Below are positions 20,595 to 38,682 of a stretch of 62,870 nt of DNA, one piece after another. The position numbers and the translations under genes are program-made. This DNA is from a virus: IMG/VR virus record IMGVR_UViG_3300041991_000007, positions 1-62,870 of that record; one strand, 5' to 3'. The notes under the pieces are model-generated. The model saw only the letters and a list, made by a program, of their open reading frames with translations, had not been told where the DNA came from and ran no database searches. Positions within the stretch are counted from its first letter, which is position 1; each line of letters starts with the position of its first letter.

Positions 20595-20881
20595 CAACTT
20601 TCTTCGTCGGGGTTTACCAGTGCTGCGGCTCGGGCTTCTAGCACTGTCGCCATGCGCTCTAGCTCGGCCCTACGGTACATGCTGCCCGTGAATCTAAACC
20701 ATCCGTTTGTGTAGCGAACGCGGACTGTCTGCCCTGTCGCCGCATGGTACGCGGCTTCGTATCGGCTCGCTAGCGCGTCTGCATAGGCTAGGCGCATGGT
20801 CTTCTGTGCCTCGGACACTCGCGCCCTGTCTGCGGCCCTTGCTGACAGCCCTGCTAGGTGTCGGCGCTGGTATGCGTTCAT
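20591..20881 (-). CDS. Protein of unknown function, paralogue of the 21879-22205 gene
   Basis: 96 residues from the ATG at 20881, which forms ATGA with the SprT-like stop. The C-terminal ~45 residues (AAYHAATGQTVRVRYTNGW, then a helix ending EARAAAL) match the end of the 21879-22205 product in length and pattern. Function unknown. The end overlaps the -35 box of the next promoter. Confidence 0.7.
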   Translation of the reverse strand: MNAYQRRHLAGLSARAADRARVSEAQKTMRLAYADALASRYEAAYHAATGQTVRVRYTNGWFRFTGSMYRRAELERMATVLEARAAALVNPDEESC

Positions 20882-21309
20882 AGGTTGAACGTCCCTGCCG
20901 GGTACTTCGCCTGTCCAGTACCGCCCAGCCGCTTGCATACCTTCACCCAGCCGTCATCATGGTTATGGCTATGGCCGTGCTGTGGCCGGAAGTCGCAAAC
21001 AACGTGAGCTAGTTCATGCGGGATTACATCGTCAAGTACGGCTTGCAAATTCTGCTCTACCGCAGACTTATTAATCCTAACTAACACCATCGGTTTATCA
21101 CGTTCACCACGTAACACCACCGCGCAAGCTGCCGCCGATGGATGGTTAGACACTCGCGCTATCGTGGCATGGTTCATAAACGCTAACTTAAAATCGTGCG
21201 GCTCGTGGATCTGGTACGTGTTCTTAGCCTCAGTCCATACGGACTTAACCCGGCGCATTACTCGGGACTCGGCAGATTCTTTATCCGTGGTAACGGCTGG
21301 AATAAACAT
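20878..21309 (-). CDS. SprT-like zinc metalloprotease
   Basis: 143 residues. The motif DDVIPHELAHVVCDF near residue 95 gives HExxH, followed by a histidine-rich loop (HGHSHNHDDGW) and KVCKRLGG, which is the SprT/SPRTN arrangement with the third histidine ligand. SPRTN-type proteases cut proteins crosslinked to DNA; SprT-like proteins of phages are uncharacterised. The N-terminal RVMRRVKSVWTEAKNTYQI helix also fits. Expected to act in the cytoplasm. Confidence 0.82.
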   Translation of the reverse strand: MFIPAVTTDKESAESRVMRRVKSVWTEAKNTYQIHEPHDFKLAFMNHATIARVSNHPSAAACAVVLRGERDKPMVLVRINKSAVEQNLQAVLDDVIPHELAHVVCDFRPQHGHSHNHDDGWVKVCKRLGGTGQAKYPAGTFNL

Positions 21310-24133: not shown

Positions 24134-24162
24134 ATAGCCCCAAACCATCGGGCCGGGGCTAT
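24134..24162 (-). terminator. Inverted repeat after the amidoligase gene
   Basis: ATAGCCCC (24134-24141) and GGGGCTAT (24155-24162) form an 8-bp stem downstream of the amidoligase stop at 24187. The repeat overlaps the -10 box of the promoter at 24161, so it may end the upstream transcript and also fold at the very start of the new one. Confidence 0.45.
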
Positions 24163-24190
24163 TGTAGAACTTTCTACAAACGCATGTCAA
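24161..24190 (-). promoter_or_regulatory. Strong sigma70-like promoter with perfect operator palindrome
   Basis: Read leftward: -35 TTGACA (24190-24185, consensus), 18-bp spacer, -10 TACAAT (24166-24161). The perfect repeat TTGTAGAA-CT-TTCTACAA (24162-24179) covers the -10 box and part of the spacer, the usual place for a repressor. The -35 box overlaps the stop codon of the amidoligase gene. Confidence 0.75.
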
Positions 24191-25485
24191 GCGGCCATTG
24201 AGTACGGATCGACTTCCGGCGCGATGGCGCTAGCAGGCCGCTGGCGGCGGTTCTGGCGGCGTTCGTACCTGGCCCTTGCTCTCGCTACCTGTTCGGCTAT
24301 GAGCCGCGCCTCACGCTCGGCTAGAGCGGCCTGCTCTCTGCCGTCCGTGGTGCGCTGCTGCAACGCCCCTAGTACATCGACAGCGGTAGGGTGCTGATTG
24401 TAGTCGCGCATGCTGTAGCGCCAGCGGTGCGCGATCTGCGCGGTTTCGTTGCGGTAGTCTGCCGGGTCAAGCCCAAGCGTCGCCAGCATATTGAGCCAGC
24501 CGCGTTTAGCTTCGCTCCACTTAATCGCCCGCATTTGCTCGCCGCTCATTACATCGTTAGGATTATATTCCGTTATATCCCACTTCTCGACATAATTGCA
24601 GATAGCATTGGCGAGAATAATGTTCCGCTTTAGTTTATCTTCGCCGCCCATTTCAAAACAACGGAACTCGATTGTGCCATTATCACCGTAGTCGGTAATT
24701 CTCACCATATCGTCTTTGTCTCCGGTATACTGGATAGACTCCACGCTGAGCATATCTGTTTCGGCTTTCGTGAATTTATTGCGCAGACGTATCAGGCGCA
24801 TTTTCCACATCATTAAATATGTCTGCGCTGCTAATACGTCTCTCGCATCGCACTCGCGATAAACCCTTTCGCACCACCTATCGGCGCGGTGCATGTATGC
24901 TGTTTCGCTTGCTACCGCGTGCGCGTATCTTTTTATGCGGGACTCGCAATGCTCCACAGTATCTTCATCGTTATTACCTGAGTAACGGTTGCGGCGGGAC
25001 AAATGCTGTCGGGTAAGCGGCTTGGCATTAATATCGTCCACCGTATTAAGCGTGGCCCATGCAAGCCACGGATTCATTGCAGCGAATAGCATCATGCGTT
25101 TTGAATACATGGAGCGTTCTTTATTATCGCTGCCAATAATCCCTGTGTGAATATGCGCGCCGCCACCGCTGCTATAATCGGCTTGCACCACTAACCCTAA
25201 TTCCTCGGCTTCCCTGCGCAGTCTCCGCGCTATGCTTAGCAGTGTGGACAGCTTGCGATATGGCTTCGTGCGGATTTCCACGCAACCCGGATCGGTAGTG
25301 GCTTCACCCCAAACAGGTATTTTCTTTGCGCGGATAAGGTGCTGCATTAACCGGGCGAGTGCGTAGTTAACATCCGATTCCATCGGCGCGTGTTCCGGCT
25401 CAAATGTAGCGCCCCGATTTAATGCAACTTGATACATGGCGGGAACGTAGGTCAATTCAATACCCATTGTCGTTGTCAGGCTCAT
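24187..25485 (-). CDS. Probable amidoligase (glutamine-synthetase-like COOH-NH2 ligase)
   Basis: 432 residues. The pattern fits the Amidoligase_2 family: GIELTYVP at residues 8-15 (metal-binding E), DPGCVEIRTKPY at 65-76, SSGGGAHIHTGI near 105-116 with H111 and H113, and GTIEFRCFEMGG near 275. These enzymes are predicted to join carboxyl and amino groups using ATP, forming amide links on peptides or small molecules. The last 60 residues are arginine-rich. A GGAGA site precedes the ATG. It ends the run that begins with the MoxR-like ATPase, so both probably belong to one system. The family call is good; the substrate is unknown. Confidence 0.75.
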   Translation of the reverse strand: MSLTTTMGIELTYVPAMYQVALNRGATFEPEHAPMESDVNYALARLMQHLIRAKKIPVWGEATTDPGCVEIRTKPYRKLSTLLSIARRLRREAEELGLVVQADYSSGGGAHIHTGIIGSDNKERSMYSKRMMLFAAMNPWLAWATLNTVDDINAKPLTRQHLSRRNRYSGNNDEDTVEHCESRIKRYAHAVASETAYMHRADRWCERVYRECDARDVLAAQTYLMMWKMRLIRLRNKFTKAETDMLSVESIQYTGDKDDMVRITDYGDNGTIEFRCFEMGGEDKLKRNIILANAICNYVEKWDITEYNPNDVMSGEQMRAIKWSEAKRGWLNMLATLGLDPADYRNETAQIAHRWRYSMRDYNQHPTAVDVLGALQQRTTDGREQAALAEREARLIAEQVARARARYERRQNRRQRPASAIAPEVDPYSMAA

Positions 25486-25496
25486 GGCATTATCTC

Positions 25497-25748
25497 CTAA
25501 AGGTCGTCGGCTTGATCGTTAATCATCTGGTTATATTCGATTACTCGCGACTCGCAACAATCGCCGCAAAGGTAATCGGTAATATAAACATCCGAACCTA
25601 GCTCGCGCTCCACTTTGCGCCAGCCGTGCGTTAACGCATACTGCAAATTCTTATGCGCTCCGCAATCGTGGCATTCAAGTGTAGCCGCTAACATACTCGG
25701 CACCATCTGGTTAAACACCAGCGGCGCAAACGTGATAGCCCCGCGCAT
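25497..25748 (-). CDS. Small zinc-ribbon-like protein
   Basis: 83 residues from the ATG at 25748 (GGAGG site, TAATG overlap; a start at 25763 is less likely). CHDCGAH and LCGDCCES provide two CxxC pairs about 35 residues apart, a zinc-ribbon layout. It lies between the MoxR-like/partner genes and the amidoligase and could be an adaptor or carrier in that system. Confidence 0.72.
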   Translation of the reverse strand: MRGAITFAPLVFNQMVPSMLAATLECHDCGAHKNLQYALTHGWRKVERELGSDVYITDYLCGDCCESRVIEYNQMINDQADDL

Positions 25749-26026
25749 TATGGCATCCTCCAATTATTAATCAGCCCGTGTTTAATGCGCAAGCGGTTTA
25801 CTTCCTCGCGCATCTTCTGTTTCGCTTCGGTTGCGGTATCATAATTATAGCCGCACGCCACTACCCGCGACAAGGTAGGATTGAAATTGTATTCAATCGA
25901 GTATGTCCATTTGTCCTGTCCTTGAATGGGCGGATATACCCGCCCCGGATTAATCGCTGTGATTTTCATTTGATTCACCCTCACGGTATGGAATGGATAT
26001 TGATTGCGCAAGTCTTGCCTATTCAT
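25748..26026 (-). CDS. Protein of unknown function in the MoxR/amidoligase cassette
   Basis: 92 residues from the ATG at 26026 (AAGGAG site). The longer frame to 26098 would overlap the partner gene. Beta-rich (TVRVNQMKITAINPG, YSIEYNFNPTLSRVV) then a helical basic end. No family recognised. Confidence 0.7.
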   Translation of the reverse strand: MNRQDLRNQYPFHTVRVNQMKITAINPGRVYPPIQGQDKWTYSIEYNFNPTLSRVVACGYNYDTATEAKQKMREEVNRLRIKHGLINNWRMP

Positions 26027-26885
26027 TATCCAGACTCCTTTGCTTTTCGATCTGCTTATGTACCCACTTAACCGGGTCGTTTCCGAACTCATAAGCATCC
26101 GTCAAGTAACCGCCCTGCATCAGTATGTCTTGCGGTTCCATGTTTAGCAACTTACGAAAACGCTGCTCCCGTTCACTCCGATTATACCCGTTATCGGGAT
26201 GGCCGAATAACCAATCACATCCGGCACTGCTAACGCCTGTCGCTTGCTCGCTATTAGTGAACGCCATGCACCTGCAAAACTCCCGCGTTGCGAAGGCCGC
26301 AATGGTTGAATGCAAGTCAATCGGGTGAGTGTTAATCGGAACCACTCCGACATAACCTGCGCGGCCATGATATCTATTATCTAACGCGATTATTGCATAC
26401 AACTCGACTGGCCGTTCTTCCGCTGTCCGCATTACTAGCGCAGCCAGTCCAGCGGCGCGACGTTCTAGGTCATGCGTGCTAGTGCCGCCACTAACAACCG
26501 CCTCAATGTAATAGCGAATCGGCGCGGTGTTATCTTCCTCACTGTGCTTGACGCGCATGCTAAACGGATCGCCTGCCAGATAATCCGGCACTACTGGATA
26601 AGCGCCGAATGGTGACGGCTGCCAGTGCTGGCGGTCGCGGTCGCGATAGCTTGCGTCGATCTTTTCCACTAGCGCTTTCGCTTCGCGCATGTGCTGCTCG
26701 CCTATATTCTGCTCGCAGAATCGCACGGCTTCTCGCTCGCTAACGTGACCTAGGAACGATTGACGCCCGCCATACTGCCGCCCTTCGCCTTTCTCGCTGT
26801 ACCTGTACCACTCGGTTACGTTGTCAAACCGCTGCATGACAATCGGCAAGCTGCCGTATATATCATTGTGATTAGTGACGATCAT
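26019..26885 (-). CDS. MoxR-associated partner protein (DUF7192-like)
   Basis: 288 residues. SLPIVMQRFDNVTEWYRY at the start, then YLAGDPFSMRV and an IRYYIEAVVSGG...LAALVMRTAEERPVELY stretch recall a phage family that I know as DUF7192 and that travels with MoxR-like ATPases. In related modules a VWA-type protein binds the ATPase; this protein has the alternating strand-helix pattern of such a fold in its second half (VELYAIIALD; GYVGVVPINT) but no clear MIDAS motif. Its start is separated by only one base from the ATPase stop. Partnership with the ATPase is likely; activity is unknown. Confidence 0.6.
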   Translation of the reverse strand: MIVTNHNDIYGSLPIVMQRFDNVTEWYRYSEKGEGRQYGGRQSFLGHVSEREAVRFCEQNIGEQHMREAKALVEKIDASYRDRDRQHWQPSPFGAYPVVPDYLAGDPFSMRVKHSEEDNTAPIRYYIEAVVSGGTSTHDLERRAAGLAALVMRTAEERPVELYAIIALDNRYHGRAGYVGVVPINTHPIDLHSTIAAFATREFCRCMAFTNSEQATGVSSAGCDWLFGHPDNGYNRSEREQRFRKLLNMEPQDILMQGGYLTDAYEFGNDPVKWVHKQIEKQRSLDNE

Positions 26886-26886
26886 A

Positions 26887-28272
26887 TCAGCGCACTCCCG
26901 CTTTAATCTTTACGTTGTTCCACTGGTCATCGCTCAAGCCTTTGCGAACCGTCATATTAATTACCGCTTCGCGATCCACTCCACTAGCTAGCAGCGCATT
27001 ACCGCGCAATGATGCACGCGGGGTAACTAGATGTTTAACACCAGCGGCCTTGCATGCTGCCCGGATTTTCTGGACATAGTTTGTCCATTCATTATCGCCA
27101 GCAATAGCGCGTTCCAGTATTTCATCATACTGCCAGTCAAGCATGATGAAACGATCAACCGTTGCCGCGTCAATCTTTGTGCGCCCGACATATTCATGCG
27201 TCGCACCAGTGCCGTAAGTATTAGCGGCTGCAATGAATCGGCAATCAGCGTGCATCTTAACCACGCCATCGGGAAACACGCATTCCCCGTTTTCAAGCGC
27301 CGCATTAAACGCCACTAGTGCCGCTGGATTGCTGGCGTCTACTTCGTCCCAAAGAAACACGCCGCCATTTTCGTATGCTTCGCGAAACGTGGTGCGATGG
27401 TATGTGCCGCCAGCGTCAATAAACCCTAGCAACTGATAAACATTATCCACTGCGCCCGTATGATGGAACGCAATATCAAACGCCTTTGCCGCATGCTTTG
27501 CTGCCGTCGTCTTACCTGATCCAGCGGGGCCGGGCATCCAAATGGGAAAGCCTGCCTGCATTGCCTTAATCAGTGTCGGAAATAGCTTATGTTGCATCCC
27601 CAAGTCTTGCGCCGTCGTCGTGCCGTCCGGGTCTTTATGATGGACAGTAACGATTGTCGGCTTTACGGTTTTATTCGCTTCGTCGCGTGCGATTGCCCTG
27701 ACTTGCGCTTCGTCAATCGCTGGCGCTTGTGGCGTGAGTGCCGCCATTAATGCCGCCAGTGCGGCTTGCGCACCTTCGGGCATACCTTCGGGCAGGGTAG
27801 GCACTGGCGCAGCCTTAGCGGGCAAATTCTGCGGCTGTGCTGCCGTACCTTGCGACCGCTTCGCGCCTTGCGGTACAGGGATATCATCGGAAAGGATCGC
27901 GGCAATTTCGCCTGCTAATTCATCATCGGCATTATCCACGGGTTCGGGTTCCTGATTGTTGGCGGTAGGATCATCCATGTTTATAAACGTGGTTAGTGGC
28001 CTACCCTTTTTATTAGGGTTATTTGAGTACGCTTCGGCGCGTGCCTCATACTTCGGCAAATATTCCGCAAGCTTTTCTGCGGCTCGCGCATTAGCGTCTG
28101 CCCTAACGGCTAGATCATTCGCATAGTGCGCTTTAAATGGCCGCTCGTACTTAGACTGCCAATTAGTAACAGTGCCGAATACATCGCGTTCAAGCCTTTC
28201 AATGTCGCCGGTAATCAGGTTGGCAATGCGCAGTGCCGTGTTATTACGAAACGCAAAAGAGATAACAGACAT
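26887..28272 (-). CDS. MoxR-like AAA+ ATPase
   Basis: 461 residues from the ATG at 28272 (GGAG site); a TTG at 28290 is the alternative. The N-terminal ~230 residues are charged and partly disordered. The AAA+ core follows: Walker A MPGPAGSGKTTAAKH, GVFLWDEVDASNP (Walker B), FIAAANTYG (sensor 1), then RTKIDAATVDRF with the arginine finger. This is the AAA_5/MoxR pattern. These ATPases usually remodel or activate a partner protein using ATP. It is the first gene of the cassette ending in the amidoligase. Confidence 0.9.
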   Translation of the reverse strand: MSVISFAFRNNTALRIANLITGDIERLERDVFGTVTNWQSKYERPFKAHYANDLAVRADANARAAEKLAEYLPKYEARAEAYSNNPNKKGRPLTTFINMDDPTANNQEPEPVDNADDELAGEIAAILSDDIPVPQGAKRSQGTAAQPQNLPAKAAPVPTLPEGMPEGAQAALAALMAALTPQAPAIDEAQVRAIARDEANKTVKPTIVTVHHKDPDGTTTAQDLGMQHKLFPTLIKAMQAGFPIWMPGPAGSGKTTAAKHAAKAFDIAFHHTGAVDNVYQLLGFIDAGGTYHRTTFREAYENGGVFLWDEVDASNPAALVAFNAALENGECVFPDGVVKMHADCRFIAAANTYGTGATHEYVGRTKIDAATVDRFIMLDWQYDEILERAIAGDNEWTNYVQKIRAACKAAGVKHLVTPRASLRGNALLASGVDREAVINMTVRKGLSDDQWNNVKIKAGVR

Positions 28273-28297
28273 GATTTTATGCTCCGTCAATTGTATT

Positions 28298-29442: not shown

Positions 29443-29928
29443 TTACATTAGGCCACGCGCCGCCATACTTACCGGCTCACCTTCACCCACAACTAAATGA
29501 TCTAGCACTCGCACGCCGACATATTTTAGTGCTGCCATTAGTTCGTGAGTTATTGCCCTATCCGCTGCGCTAGGTTCTGCCACGCCAGACGGATGATTAT
29601 GGGTGAATATGCAAGCCGCTGCATTATGCTCCAAAGCGCTGCGCACAACTTCACGCGGATGCACACTAGCGCCGTCGATTGTGCCTTGAAACATCTCCTC
29701 AAAGTCTAACACTCTATGCCGGTTATCCAGCCAGATAACACAAAACGCTTCGGACTTGTAACCGGCAAAGTGTAGCCGTGCATAATCACCAGAATCGCGC
29801 GGATTACCTAGGCTTATTAATCCTACCCTTACGCGATCGTTTAGGATATCCAGCGCACAGCGTATTACTTCGTCTTGTTCCTGCGTATTCATATTGCGGA
29901 TTAGTTTATTAATGATTTTGCGTGCCAT
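29443..29928 (-). CDS. radC: RadC family JAMM-domain protein
   Basis: 161 residues from the ATG at 29928 (GGGAG site eight bases upstream). [18 protein letters not shown], then [16 protein letters not shown] carry the JAMM/MPN+ motif (E...HxHPSGxxxPSxxD) of RadC. The N-terminal helix-hairpin-helix part of long RadC proteins is missing. RadC is now seen mainly on mobile elements and phages; a role in restart or repair is suggested but unproven, and JAMM folds elsewhere are deubiquitinase-like peptidases. First gene of the left arm, near the divergence point. Confidence 0.9.
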
Positions 29929-30028
29929 GTTATTAACTCCCATGTTATTTAGTCCCGCACAATGCGGGGCAGACTTTATTGCGGAGTATTAATCGTATTA
30001 TTAATACCCTAACCGGAGCGCGTTAAAA

Positions 30029-30399: not shown

Positions 30400-31062
30400 A
30401 TGTCAGCCACACTTACGCACCCTGCACCTATGCCAAGTACATTTAGGGACTCAGTAGCCCTAAGAGCTAGGAATCTCAGATTCCGTGGCATAGGAAACCC
30501 ATTCACATTTTTGGCAGAGATTGGTTTAGTACCGATCAAAGAGTACATATATCGTGGGGCTACAATCATTGACCTGGCAGATGAACTAAATCTACCCGTC
30601 ACCACAATACGTACATGGATAGAAGAGAATGGATATCAGGGGGAGTTAGAGGAAGCTAGCACGCTATCGGCAGAAGGTTATATACGCCAAGGCGAGTTAA
30701 TGCTTAAGTCCGCAGAGAACAAGTTTAACTTGGATAAAGCGAAAGCCATGATCGAGCATGGGCGCTGGATGGCATCTAAGAAAGATAAGAAGACTTATGG
30801 GCAGAGTGCTGCGGAAGTAGGCCAGCAAGCAGCAGTATCTTACACGTTCCTTATAGGGGATAATGCAGCCATACAGGTAAATGGGAACCCACATGGGCCT
30901 GATGCACGCGCACTGAATGTAGAGAAGCCGAATGACACGCCAGTAGAGTTTAGGTTGGGAGATACTAATCCGTTCCAAGTTGAACGACCGCCTGACTACT
31001 TACAGCGAACACACTCTGACTTTCCTGTAGTAGCTCCTATCGACAACCCGGATGAAGTGTAA
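30400..31062 (+). CDS. terS: Terminase small subunit
   Basis: 220 residues from the ATG at 30400. A TTG at 30298 and an ATG at 30430 are alternatives and none has a good ribosome site. The middle holds a helix-turn-helix (ATIIDLADELNLPVTTIRTWI), followed by a long helical section (LMLKSAENKFNLDKAKAMIEHGRWMASKKDKKTYGQ), as in phage TerS proteins that bind the packaging site and form a ring. The stop overlaps the TerL start (TAATG). The position directly before TerL makes the call firm. Confidence 0.82.
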   Translation: MSATLTHPAPMPSTFRDSVALRARNLRFRGIGNPFTFLAEIGLVPIKEYIYRGATIIDLADELNLPVTTIRTWIEENGYQGELEEASTLSAEGYIRQGELMLKSAENKFNLDKAKAMIEHGRWMASKKDKKTYGQSAAEVGQQAAVSYTFLIGDNAAIQVNGNPHGPDARALNVEKPNDTPVEFRLGDTNPFQVERPPDYLQRTHSDFPVVAPIDNPDEV

Positions 31063-32564
31063 TGGATGCCGACGATCTAATCCTTGCACAGAAGCCAGAC
31101 TTTAAGAAGACAGCGCTAGCTAATGCGTCTAAGGCGTTTGTCTATAAAGCAGAGCCTACTTTAACGCGATTACATAACGATCGCGGGTTAGACTTGCAGT
31201 ACATAGAAGGCCCAGTAGGTTCGGGTAAGTCTACTGGTTGTATGATGGAAGTGCTGATGCGTGCAATGCGCCAGCAGCCAGATGACCAGAATGTACGCCG
31301 TAGTCGATGGGTGTTTGTGCGTAATACGTATCCTGAGCTTAAGACCACAACAATTAAGACGTGGCAGCAGTGGGTGCCAAACGATATTGCGCCCATAGTG
31401 TACTCGATGCCGATACAATGCCGCTTCAAGCAGAAGATGGCAGATGGTACTAGCGTAGACCTTGAGATATATTTCATGGCGCTAGATACCGCAGAAGACG
31501 TTAAGAAGCTACTGTCACTGGAACTTACAGGCGCGTATATAAACGAAGGTCGTGAGATTCCTGTAGAAATTGTAGATGGTCTTCTAGAACGTATTGACCG
31601 ATATCCAGAAACAAAGAAAGATGCTGAGGGCAATAAATTATTCGGCGCTACTGAGCCGGGCATTATTGTGGACTCAAACCCACCACGCACAACTCACTGG
31701 TGCTATACAAAGTTTGAGGAAGGTTCGACACCAGAAGGATGGCGCCGGTATAAACAGCCACCTGCCGTATTCTGGAATGGGGAGGGTTGGGAGCTAAATC
31801 CTGACGCAGAGAATCTAAGCCACCTATCTGACAACTATTACATGCGTCAGATGGCTAAGAGCGAAGAAGCCATCCGTGTGAACCTTGCTGGTGAGTATGG
31901 TATGACTCGCCGTGGTAAGCCAGTCTTCTCTAAATTCTCGGAAATGAAGCATGTTGCGAAAGAGATTATATTACCTAGGCGTGGCACTAGCATACTTCTT
32001 GGCATTGACTTTGGCCTCACTCCTGCATGTATTATTGCTCAGTTAAACTTTAAAGGATTAGTTTTACTTGATGAGCTACCCGCAACAGATGAAAGCTTAG
32101 AAGACTTCCTAGATAACTATATACTTCCTCTACTACGAAATAAGTATAGCGGCTATAGTGTAGTAGCTAGCGGCGATCCGGCTGGCGGTCAAAGGTCTGG
32201 ATTAACTAAGATGACTGCTATACAGATGATGACTATGCGGGGTATTAAGACATACCCTGCATTGACTAATAAGTTTTCTACACGTAAAGAAGCAGTAGAC
32301 TTCTTCTTAGGTCGTGATGAAGGATTTGTTATTAGTCCACATCTAACACATACCCGCGAAGTAATGGGGGCAGGTTACGTATGGAAAGAGACACGTAACA
32401 ATCAAGGCAAGGTATTAGATATCGCAGATAAGAATGAGTTTTCGCATATGGCGGACGCGATTCAGTATCTTGCATTGTACGCACGTCATGGCGCGGGCAG
32501 TGGCATGCGGGCGCTAGGGTCGAACGTGGTCACACCGAAAGCCCCGGCGCACCTGTGGGCTTGA
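31062..32564 (+). CDS. terL: Terminase large subunit
   Basis: 500 residues. The ATPase Walker A EGPVGSGKSTG has GSGKST at 53-58, followed by RNTYPELKTTTIKTW, typical of podovirus-type TerL. The nuclease half has ILLGIDFGLTPACIIAQL near 320 (first catalytic D), SGDPAGGQRSG, and HMADAIQYLALYAR near the end (last catalytic D). It pumps DNA into the prohead and cuts it; with a circularly permuted genome a headful mode is likely. The end is rich in G and A. Confidence 0.95.
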   Translation: MDADDLILAQKPDFKKTALANASKAFVYKAEPTLTRLHNDRGLDLQYIEGPVGSGKSTGCMMEVLMRAMRQQPDDQNVRRSRWVFVRNTYPELKTTTIKTWQQWVPNDIAPIVYSMPIQCRFKQKMADGTSVDLEIYFMALDTAEDVKKLLSLELTGAYINEGREIPVEIVDGLLERIDRYPETKKDAEGNKLFGATEPGIIVDSNPPRTTHWCYTKFEEGSTPEGWRRYKQPPAVFWNGEGWELNPDAENLSHLSDNYYMRQMAKSEEAIRVNLAGEYGMTRRGKPVFSKFSEMKHVAKEIILPRRGTSILLGIDFGLTPACIIAQLNFKGLVLLDELPATDESLEDFLDNYILPLLRNKYSGYSVVASGDPAGGQRSGLTKMTAIQMMTMRGIKTYPALTNKFSTRKEAVDFFLGRDEGFVISPHLTHTREVMGAGYVWKETRNNQGKVLDIADKNEFSHMADAIQYLALYARHGAGSGMRALGSNVVTPKAPAHLWA

Positions 32565-36764: not shown

Positions 36765-37730
36765 ATGGCTGAGAATGTATCTGCGTTGCCTAGCTCAATG
36801 CAAGCACGTCGCGCTGCTTTGGAAACACAGAATAATGATCCTGCATCTGCCCCGGCACCTGCCCCGGCACCTGCCCCGGCACCTACACCTACTCCAACTG
36901 AACCTGTAGAGGCTAAGGTTACTATTAGCCGCGCAGAATTCAATGACCTACAGGCGGCGGCTGGCAAGGCCCGCGCTGCCGAAGGGCGCACCGAAGCGCT
37001 GCAAATGGACGTGGAAGCCCTCACCCGGCGCTTGACAGAGCTTGAGGATGGCTCTAAGGGTAGTCCCAAGCCCGCAGCAAAGCCCGCAGCGAGCGCAGAT
37101 CCATGGGAACCGACACCAGTTGAGTACAGCGAAGATGATCTGAAAGACTACGGCGAAAGCAAAGGTTTTGTCGCTAAGGTTATTCAGGAAGCTTTAAATA
37201 AAGAGCTACCTAAGATCGTTGCCCGGCTCGACGCTATCGAAGAACAGATTACTGGCGTCCGTACTATCGCAGAAGGAGCCTCTAAGACTGCAAGTGGGGT
37301 AAAGGCTAAAACCTATACTGACCAAGTGCGGGAAAAGGTAGGTAACTTTGATGAATGCACAGGACATAAAAACTGGCGTGACTTCACCGAAGCGACAGAT
37401 CCAGATACAGGATATACTTACGCAGAACTAATCCAAAACAATTTCGCTAGAGAGAATGTTATTGGTATGGTTCGTGTGTTTGATAAGTTTAAGGAGAAGT
37501 ACGGCGTAGGCAAAGCCCCGGCAGCTACAGGTTATGAAGGGGGAATGCCGAACGGTGGTGGCGGATCGGATGAAGAAATCGACACCGGCCCGAAAATGCT
37601 ACCGTTTAGCAAGCGAAAGGAAGCGCACAAGCAATACATCAACAAGGAAATCAGTTACGAAGACTACGAGCGTATTAAGTCTGAGTATGACGCCGCCGAC
37701 CGTGAAGGCCGAGTGGATTATAACAAGTAA
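36765..37730 (+). CDS. Scaffolding protein
   Basis: 321 residues, acidic and helical. An N-terminal AP-repeat linker (residues ~27-45) is followed by a coiled coil (LQMDVEALTRRLTELED), a charged core and a glycine-rich hinge, then a helical basic end (KRKEAHKQYINKEISYEDYERI) that fits a capsid-binding tail. Its place directly before the major capsid gene is that of podoviral scaffolds, which fill the prohead and exit before packaging. Confidence 0.8.
   Translation: MAENVSALPSSMQARRAALETQNNDPASAPAPAPAPAPAPTPTPTEPVEAKVTISRAEFNDLQAAAGKARAAEGRTEALQMDVEALTRRLTELEDGSKGSPKPAAKPAASADPWEPTPVEYSEDDLKDYGESKGFVAKVIQEALNKELPKIVARLDAIEEQITGVRTIAEGASKTASGVKAKTYTDQVREKVGNFDECTGHKNWRDFTEATDPDTGYTYAELIQNNFARENVIGMVRVFDKFKEKYGVGKAPAATGYEGGMPNGGGGSDEEIDTGPKMLPFSKRKEAHKQYINKEISYEDYERIKSEYDAADREGRVDYNK
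36848..36883. repeat. Three perfect 12-bp repeats in the scaffold gene
   Basis: Three copies of TGCCCCGGCACC encode the repeated APAP linker near the scaffold N-terminus. Confidence 0.88.
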
Positions 37731-37746
37731 GATCGGAGAATAGAAA

Positions 37747-38682
37747 ATGGCCGTACCTGCCGCAAGTGGCTACCCCCAGTACAGCAATAGTCTTATTACA
37801 CCGCTTTTCCGCATGGACTTGCTGGAACGGTTCTATACCACCACGGTCTACAGCGATATTTCTACCACGGAATATACTGGTGACTTGCAGAAGGGTGGCG
37901 ACCAGATTACCTTCATGCGTGAACCGAAGGTAGTTGTTCGAGACTACGATAAGAATGGTAAGATCATCCACGACACCATTGATGGTGAACCCGTGACGAT
38001 GACGATTGATTACGCCAAGACGTTCTCAATCAAGATGAATCACATCGACGAACGCCAGATTCAGAACTTCGACAAGTGGAAGGCTGCCTTCCTTAAGTCT
38101 GCGGGTTATGAACTGACACGGGCCATTGACCCGCAGTTGATGACTGAAATGTGGACGAATGTTGCAGCGTATAACCAAGGCGCTACCGCAGGTCTAGTAT
38201 CTAAGAATATCAACTTAGGTACTACCGGCGCTCCGCTAGCAGTTACTTCGGCTACAATTCCGCTAGTGCTAGCGCAGGTTTATCAGGTTCTAGATGAAGC
38301 CCTAGCTCCGCGCGAAGGTCGATTCATGGTGCTACCGTCTGCCGCAATCACTGTGCTAAAGAATAGTGAACTGCGTTTAGCGTATGCTACCGGACTAAAT
38401 AGCTCACCGATGGTCAATGGTAAGCTACCGGCAGATATCGCAGGATTTACCATTCTAGAGTCGCAGAACGTCCCGAGTGTAATGGACACTGGTGTTCGTG
38501 CCTACCATGTGGTCGCCGGCGTAAAGATGGCTACCGCATTCGCGGCTCAGATCGAAGATAGCCGTGTTGTCACGGATAAGGACGATTGGGCGAACTACTA
38601 CCAGGGTCTATCGGTATACGGCTTCAAGGTTCTATACCCGGACGCTCTGGTTCACCTGTACGCTTCGTTCAGCGCAAGCTAA
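37747..38682 (+). CDS. Major capsid protein (HK97-like fold)
   Basis: 311 residues, full length with no long propeptide. LERFYTTTVYSDIST, TGDLQKGGDQITFMREP, an IKMNHIDERQI region and a C-terminal YQGLSVYGFKVLYPDALVHLYAS are typical of the P22-independent podoviral capsid proteins with an HK97 fold. Codons are more GC-rich than those of nearby tail genes, as expected for the most abundant virion protein. A GGAG-type site precedes the ATG. Confidence 0.9.
   Translation: MAVPAASGYPQYSNSLITPLFRMDLLERFYTTTVYSDISTTEYTGDLQKGGDQITFMREPKVVVRDYDKNGKIIHDTIDGEPVTMTIDYAKTFSIKMNHIDERQIQNFDKWKAAFLKSAGYELTRAIDPQLMTEMWTNVAAYNQGATAGLVSKNINLGTTGAPLAVTSATIPLVLAQVYQVLDEALAPREGRFMVLPSAAITVLKNSELRLAYATGLNSSPMVNGKLPADIAGFTILESQNVPSVMDTGVRAYHVVAGVKMATAFAAQIEDSRVVTDKDDWANYYQGLSVYGFKVLYPDALVHLYASFSAS

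Follow-up and report, generated by a model that had tools for sequence, protein, structure and literature searches.

Phages of many hosts carry a MoxR/CobS-type AAA+ ATPase and a protein of the family DUF7192 as a strict two-gene module, and in one phage group the pair is followed by a predicted ligase gene of the glutamine-synthetase (GS) fold. The window analysed here is an IMG/VR virus record at its full length of 62,870 bases; its own phage group (~62 kb) comprises five distinct phages, and no close DNA relative of the window was found among 50,697 phage records. We consider it fairly probable that the two genes encode a NorQD/CobST-like remodelling pair with a MIDAS-less, VWA-like adaptor, and that a lineage-specific ATP-dependent ligase is transcribed after the pair.

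Virus-encoded MoxR/VWA pairs have already been described. In the literature searched, neither a DUF7192 partner nor the attached ligase seems to have been. The hosts of the phages that carry the pair belong to at least six genera (Sinorhizobium, Rhizobium, Gordonia, Mycobacterium, Tunturiibacter and Staphylococcus); among the carriers are two well-used groups, Kayviruses and cluster L mycobacteriophages. So far the partner is known by its DUF number with no characterised function, and annotations of the ATPase read porphyrin biosynthesis or helicase. A strict two-gene remodelling module of the NorQD/CobST kind offers a concrete hypothesis for tractable laboratory phages (LeBron gp127-gp128).

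Organisation of the gene block

Five minus-strand ORFs, each with an intact frame and a single terminal stop, occupy positions 24187-28272 of the window and are listed here with the promoter at their end.

26887-28272, minus strand: MoxR/CobS-type AAA+ ATPase, 461 aa from the ATG at 28272 (the ORF reaches a TTG at 28290)
26019-26885, minus strand: DUF7192 protein, 288 aa, predicted partner/adaptor with a VWA-like fold
25748-26026, minus strand: small predicted beta-rich protein, 92 aa, no family
25497-25748, minus strand: small CxxC...CxxC protein, 83 aa, putative zinc ribbon
24187-25485, minus strand: predicted GS/YbdK-fold carboxylate-amine ligase (amidoligase-like), 432 aa
24161-24190, minus strand: sigma70-like promoter TTGACA-18-TACAAT, conserved in the relatives L001 and L013

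From the ATPase to the ligase, the junctions are +1 bp, an 8-bp overlap, a 1-bp overlap and +11 bp, in agreement with the touching or overlapping ends and the single direction described in a sequence-only reading of this DNA. A purine-rich Shine-Dalgarno-type sequence lies upstream of each of the five starts. For the ATPase, the evidence favours the ATG at 28272 over the TTG at 28290, as this is the Met at which the relatives start. The -35 of the promoter overlaps the stop codon of the ligase gene, which is therefore probably the last in its transcription unit. We infer that the five genes share one transcript. The palindrome TGTAGAAaGTTCTACA lies within the spacer and -10 of this promoter.

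The gene order, whose absence from other genomes would have told against the sequence-only reading, does recur in at least four other phages, where the identity is 47-67% for the ATPase, 31-70% for the DUF7192 protein and 37-56% for the ligase. Being conserved in these four phages, the three genes are more than chance ORFs. The genes between DUF7192 and the ligase turn over in the relatives while these three stay, and the spacer measures about 0.5 to 0.9 kb. The 92-aa protein has no family match and is recognisable in L001, L013 and L092 but absent in L010; the 83-aa protein, which has family matches at chance level only, occurs in L001 and L013 and was not found in L092 or L010. The entire arm is syntenic among the phage relatives of the window. 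The sequence-only reading had taken all five genes for one system, and this claim is not supported: the pair occurs without the ligase in 39 other records, the small genes are replaced, and the synteny extends over the arm. Its further suggestion, that a protein or a polymer is tagged, is speculative. The five-gene unit was accordingly rejected as a conserved system, as the two small genes turn over within the phage group. Membership in an anti-phage defence system was also rejected, because none of the five proteins matched a PADLOC defence model. The block belongs to a leftward, non-structural arm that also holds replication genes and diverges from the late genes.

Pairing of the ATPase with DUF7192

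Loci were chosen by MoxR similarity, and the survey covers this MoxR clade rather than all phage MoxR genes. DUF7192 was found in 91 of the 93 loci, the other two of which end right after MoxR. In the non-redundant set it was present in 70/72 loci, at position +1 in 66, and no other neighbour was remotely as constant; its Pfam model, PF23822, was detected in 49 of 50 records. It is likely that the ATPase and DUF7192 form a complex. Profile searches of the 39 other pair-carrying records found neither this ligase nor any LUZ24/phiEco32-type amidoligase. A PF12224 scan of 49 records was silent, as it was for the controls, and the absence of amidoligases rests on the profile searches instead. SprT-like metalloproteases adjoin the pair in several loci and also occur within the same arm of the window; with matches in only 6/49 records, such a protease was rejected as an obligate third partner.

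Features of the ATPase and its partner

The family calls made earlier from the sequence were confirmed for all three conserved genes, by model matches above cut-off for the pair and by fold search for the ligase. The ATPase matches AAA_5 (9e-9, over the cut-off) and phrog_249 (1e-50). Its motifs are intact (Walker A GPAGSGKT, Walker B FLWDEVD, sensor-1 NT, Arg finger DRF, sensor-2 PRAS), and G254, G257, G259, K260, D315, E316, N357, T358, R380 and R425 are invariant across nine phages. The sequence-only reading was also right in proposing an ATP-driven MoxR protein with a partner. The closest solved relatives of the ATPase profile are Midasin (5e-27), CobS (1.6e-12) and CbbQ/NorQ, precisely those AAA+ proteins that work with VWA partners, which supports a VWA-type partner here as well. 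Every ligase-carrying record has an N-terminal MoxR extension of ~115 aa, and no other record does.

The DUF7192 protein of the window scores 34.3 bits (2e-8) against a gathering threshold of 27, and relatives reach up to 300 bits. In its predicted structure (pLDDT 90), the order of strands and helices fits VWA. The best PDB fold matches are NorQ-bound NorD VWA domains (E 2e-3, probability 0.80-0.85, low TM-scores), followed by weak matches to Rea1-MIDAS and vWF A domains; the link to VWA is weak, as its E-value does not reach 1e-3. The MIDAS motif DxSxS is not conserved, with D in 11/49 sequences at position 128 and S in 34/49 at position 132, and the window protein reads E..V..S at the MIDAS positions. 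A profile-profile comparison with a MIDAS-bearing cyanophage VWA protein was no better than shuffled controls. Most of the near-invariant residues lie in a hairpin at residues 84-117, which holds 6 of the 17 columns of >=75% identity (hypergeometric P=0.008, with boundaries set after viewing conservation). The favoured reading of DUF7192 is a VWA-like adaptor that has lost the MIDAS site. For the genes at 24187 and 26019, on whose folds the sequence-only reading depended, the results agreed with the assignments that it had made.

A predicted lineage-specific ligase

The ligase has no match in Pfam, PHROG or NCBIfam, and Amidoligase_2 (PF12224) matches neither the window protein nor its four relatives. 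In its AlphaFold model, all 29 structure matches at E<=1e-3 are glutamine-synthetase/YbdK/GCS proteins, in keeping with the suggested GS-like amidoligase; the model is of moderate quality (pLDDT 71, built from five sequences). The motifs TTTMGIE, DPGCVE, GGGAHIHTG, DDINA and TIEFRCFEM are conserved in 5/5 sequences, as are E10, D65, E70, H111, H113, E273 and R275, which would be equivalent to catalytic residues. Comparison of profiles with known phage amidoligases recovered only the E-F-R motif (P 4e-4; unrelated controls 0.03-0.3). From these sequence features, the protein is probably an active, lineage-specific, ATP-dependent carboxylate-amine ligase of the GS fold, a divergent enzyme missed by the standard family models.

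A tblastn search of phage records did not find the ligase, and a search of 84,980 genomes of bacteria and archaea gave none either. The only phages found to carry it are the five distinct members of the window's own group, where it lies behind the pair in all five. Four of the five ligases end in an ssrA-like [LM]AA. Overlap of the promoter with the stop codon partly accounts for this ending, and we therefore do not claim a degron.

Proposed mechanism and alternatives

In the mechanism that we favour, the ATPase, presumably a hexamer, would work with DUF7192 as its VWA-like adaptor. The mechanism of NorQD relies on a VWA finger inside the AAA+ pore (PMC13036017, PMC9976466); by analogy, hairpin 84-117 may dock in the pore of the ATPase ring while the remainder of DUF7192 holds a client, which ATP hydrolysis would twist or remodel. 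Because the metal site of classic VWA partners is lost, DUF7192 would have to grip its client by means other than MIDAS; how a VWA-like adaptor could do so is a question that this raises. The client would be one that many phages, or the hosts of these phages, share. The ligase would be an additional enzyme within the operon, its coupling to the pair optional and not obligate.

That the ligase works together with the ATPase and DUF7192 is possible but doubtful. Slightly less likely still is a single pathway. In it, the ligase would join an amine or peptide to a target in the phage or its host, MoxR-DUF7192 would serve to activate, load or extract this enzyme or its product, and the small proteins would be accessory subunits. 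The constant place of the ligase behind the pair while the intervening genes change, the tight packing, the apparent end of the unit at the ligase before a new promoter, and the co-occurrence of ligase and MoxR extension all speak for it. However, the position of the ligase is weak evidence of a shared pathway because the whole arm is syntenic, so that shared inheritance explains the gene order; moreover, the pair does without the ligase elsewhere and the spacer between them varies. We regard it as unlikely that the pair specifically handles the ligase or its product via the MoxR extension; if true, this would be an AAA+-driven protein/metabolite amidation system of a previously undescribed kind.

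The pair could instead be a virion-assembly chaperone that remodels or matures a structural protein, a role proposed for the MoxR-vWA-metallopeptidase of jumbo phages and reported for Acidianus two-tailed virus (PMC7824862). The SprT-like neighbours would fit, but they are rare, and the window pair lies in the arm with replication genes, divergent from the late genes; we consider this improbable. A viral CobST that joins with the CobN of the host and so increases the cobalamin available for DNA synthesis is much less probable. Such a role was proposed for cobST of archaeal tailed viruses, where the two-gene cluster is widely reported (PMC8651126), and CobS is a close solved relative of our ATPase. 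Yet the ATPase reaches 15.9 bits on the CobS equivalog TIGR01650, far under the cut-off of 558.55, DUF7192 is not a CobT, having neither a sequence link to a MIDAS-bearing VWA partner nor a conserved MIDAS, and authors working on similar phages call the function uncertain (PMC11288001). Least probable of all is an MCM-like replicative or repair helicase acting on DNA. This label comes from LeBron gp128, a homolog adjoining the DUF7192 protein gp127; gp128 has been described as MCM6-like, and its overexpression is highly toxic (PMC13148394). However, its MCM match is below the cut-off, the MoxR profile favours Midasin, CobS and NorQ, and a MoxR system accounts better for the obligate DUF7192 partner.

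Comparison with known systems

NorQ-NorD of Paracoccus (PMC9976466, PMC13036017) likewise combines a MoxR-type AAA+ protein with a single adjacent VWA-fold partner, and NorD supplies the best fold matches of DUF7192. NorD, however, also contains a linker and a large N-terminal domain and depends on its MIDAS, whereas DUF7192 has ~288 aa and no conserved MIDAS. Tailed-virus cobST clusters (PMC8651126) and cyanophage CobS with its 'peptidase' also place a CobS-type AAA+ protein next to a partner, and cyanophage CobS matches the window MoxR profile at 1e-19 to 1e-23. Its partner differs in having an N-terminal HExxH region and a VWA domain with full MIDAS, and DUF7192 has no profile similarity to it. 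The group 2.2 jumbo-phage proteins (PMC7824862) are a phage chaperone-cochaperone pair too, with SprT-like neighbours as a parallel in some DUF7192 loci, but the partner in the window belongs to a different family and is not fused to a peptidase.

YbdK, Amidoligase_2 and the phiEco32-LUZ24 COOH-NH2 ligases share with the window ligase the GS/GCS-type fold and an E-F-R motif near its C-terminal end, although PF12224 fails to match the window protein. The LUZ24/phiEco32-type ligase sits with glutamine amidotransferase, ATP-grasp and UPF0131 genes, none of which was among the scanned proteins of the window arm (a subset of the window ORFs), where the ligase follows MoxR-DUF7192. LeBron gp128-gp127 and the other phage MoxR-DUF7192 pairs (phrog_249, phrog_1909, PF23822) lack the ligase gene and the MoxR extension, but consist of the same two families, adjacent to each other, and are direct relatives of the window pair.

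Layout of the gene block

The window, a virus record of 62,870 bases from IMG/VR, carries five genes running in the same direction, whose ends overlap or nearly touch as the sequence-only reading had noted (junctions of +1, -8, -1 and +11 bp in order), and a ribosome-binding sequence is found upstream of each of the five starts.

Features in and around the block (window coordinates)
28272-26887, minus strand: MoxR-type ATPase, first in transcription order
26885-26019, minus strand: DUF7192 protein, second
26026-25748, minus strand: 92-aa protein, third
25748-25497, minus strand: 83-aa CxxC...CxxC protein, fourth
25485-24187, minus strand: ligase, 432 aa, fifth
24161-24190, minus strand: near-consensus sigma70-like promoter, TTGACA-18-TACAAT, overlapping the ligase stop codon
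28336-28710: gene upstream of MoxR with a DnaJ-type zinc-knuckle-like cysteine region
29443-29943: RadC/JAB-domain gene upstream of the block (PF04002, 9e-42)
20878-21309: SprT-like metalloprotease in the arm carrying the block

Because the promoter overlaps the ligase stop codon and its region is kept in two relatives of this phage group, L001 and L013 (partly also in L010), the ligase is probably the final gene of the unit. The palindrome TGTAGAAaGTTCTACA lies within the promoter's spacer and -10, a hairpin (TAGCCCC...GGGGCTA) lies in the ~30 bases that follow, and the element looks like a regulated internal promoter. The ligase C-terminus (24187-24198) has an ssrA degron-like [LM]AA ending in four of five relatives (EDNYELAA in L010), for part of which the stop-overlapping promoter may account.

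A MoxR-DUF7192 pair common among phages

On sequence grounds the ATPase is MoxR/CobS-like, not a demonstrated CobS. Its AAA+ core is intact and its profile matches the solved structures of Midasin (5e-27), CobS (2e-12) and CbbQ/NorQ, which bears out the earlier MoxR-like call; the DUF7192 assignment of its partner likewise held, with a score above the Pfam cut-off. The PHROG label of the ATPase family is "porphyrin biosynthesis". Tried as a CobS equivalog, the protein scored far under the cut-off.

Eight phage MoxR proteins were aligned, and scanning with this alignment added 80 loci. DUF7192 was missing in only 2 of the 93 loci examined, both of which end right after MoxR. Among 72 non-redundant loci it was present in 70, directly downstream of MoxR in 66, and the next commonest neighbours occurred in nine loci each; as loci were chosen by MoxR similarity, these counts apply to this MoxR clade only. 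PF23822 was present in 49 of 50 records. Annotated examples of the pair include Sinorhizobium phiM5, Gordonia Octobien14, Mycobacterium Lumos, Rhizobium P106B and RHph_X2_24, Tunturiibacter Tunturi_4 and a Kayvirus. One phage contig, IMGVR_UViG_3300036781_000235, encodes two DUF7192 proteins (31032-31742 and 37319-38113). Distantly SprT-like proteins directly adjoin the pair, on either side, in about nine other loci (e.g. L041 9494-10204, L039 6781-7401 and L081 7099-7713).

CobS-CobT-like pairs of tailed viruses have been read as cobaltochelatase (PMC8651126), virion assembly has been proposed for MoxR-vWA-metallopeptidase pairs of jumbo phages (PMC7824862), and other authors commit to no function for phage cobS (PMC11288001). 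The term DUF7192 did not occur in the open-access literature searched. LeBron gp127 and gp128 (L100 2825-3697 and 3920-5164) are such a pair: gp128, the MoxR, was called MCM6-like and is strongly toxic on overexpression, and gp127, the DUF7192 protein, is absent from that study's list of toxic genes (PMC13148394). The cyanophage "peptidase" near CobS (S-PM2, syn9 and P-SSM2) has no Pfam match; it carries an N-terminal metallopeptidase-like motif (HEVGHALFTP) and a C-terminal VWA domain with a full MIDAS (DWSGSM ... GTPL ... TDGE), the metal site of classic VWA partners.

Fold of DUF7192

The DUF7192 model (49 sequences, pLDDT 90) has a strand and helix order that we read as compatible with a VWA fold. 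Its best solved matches are NorQ-bound NorD VWA domains (E 2e-3 and 1e-2, probability 0.80-0.85); Rea1-MIDAS and vWF A domains rank lower. All E-values stay above 1e-3, and the TM-scores are low. The MIDAS signature is unconserved (D at position 128 in only 11 of 49; E-x-V-x-S in the window), and a sequence-profile comparison with the full-MIDAS cyanophage partner was null. We therefore term DUF7192 VWA-like, short of VWA family membership.

The near-invariant residues G94, V99, G105, P107 and M110 cluster within hairpin 84-117, which holds 6 of the 17 conserved columns (P=0.008, with boundaries set after the fact). In NorQD the AAA+ pore receives a VWA finger (PMC13036017, PMC9976466), and this hairpin is a candidate for the same pore-entering role.

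The probable ligase and its possible coupling to the pair

The 432-aa protein, unclaimed by any Pfam, PHROG or NCBIfam family, is likely to be an active ATP-dependent carboxylate-amine ligase. Its model (five sequences, pLDDT 71) agrees with the earlier amidoligase call: all 29 matches at E<=1e-3 are glutamine synthetases (GS), YbdK carboxylate-amine ligase or gamma-glutamylcysteine synthetase. Five relatives share the motifs TTMG-E, DP-x-x-VE, GGG-x-HIHTG, DDINA and FR-x-FEM; against known phage amidoligases the E-F-R motif alone aligns (P 4e-4; unrelated controls 0.03-0.3). Outside the window the ligase was found on only six IMG/VR contigs, and not in the bacterial genomes or phage records searched. 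A limited open-access search found no description of MoxR with an amidoligase, a prior mention being possible in the main amidoligase survey (PMC3268129).

The sequence-only reading had taken all five genes as one system and suggested checking their order in related phages. The pair precedes the ligase in every ligase-bearing phage (the window, L001, L013, L010/L011 and L014/L016), the genes between being replaced while pair and ligase stay, and an N-terminal MoxR extension of ~115 residues is found in exactly these phages and at no other locus. However, the entire arm is syntenic among these relatives, so common descent would be enough to explain the ligase's position, and neither this ligase nor any LUZ24/phiEco32-type amidoligase was found in the 39 other pair-carrying records searched. 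The gene arrangement stands and its interpretation does in part, but we consider it rather doubtful that ligase and pair are coupled as one system. Most likely the locus combines a remodelling pair widespread in phages, its adaptor being MIDAS-poor, with a GS-fold ligase specific to this lineage.

In none of the four relatives was the RadC/JAB-domain gene, which lies upstream of the block, found within the sequence fetched. The zinc-knuckle-like region of the gene next to MoxR is missing in a shorter homolog (L014 6958-7191), as if the knuckle had been inserted.
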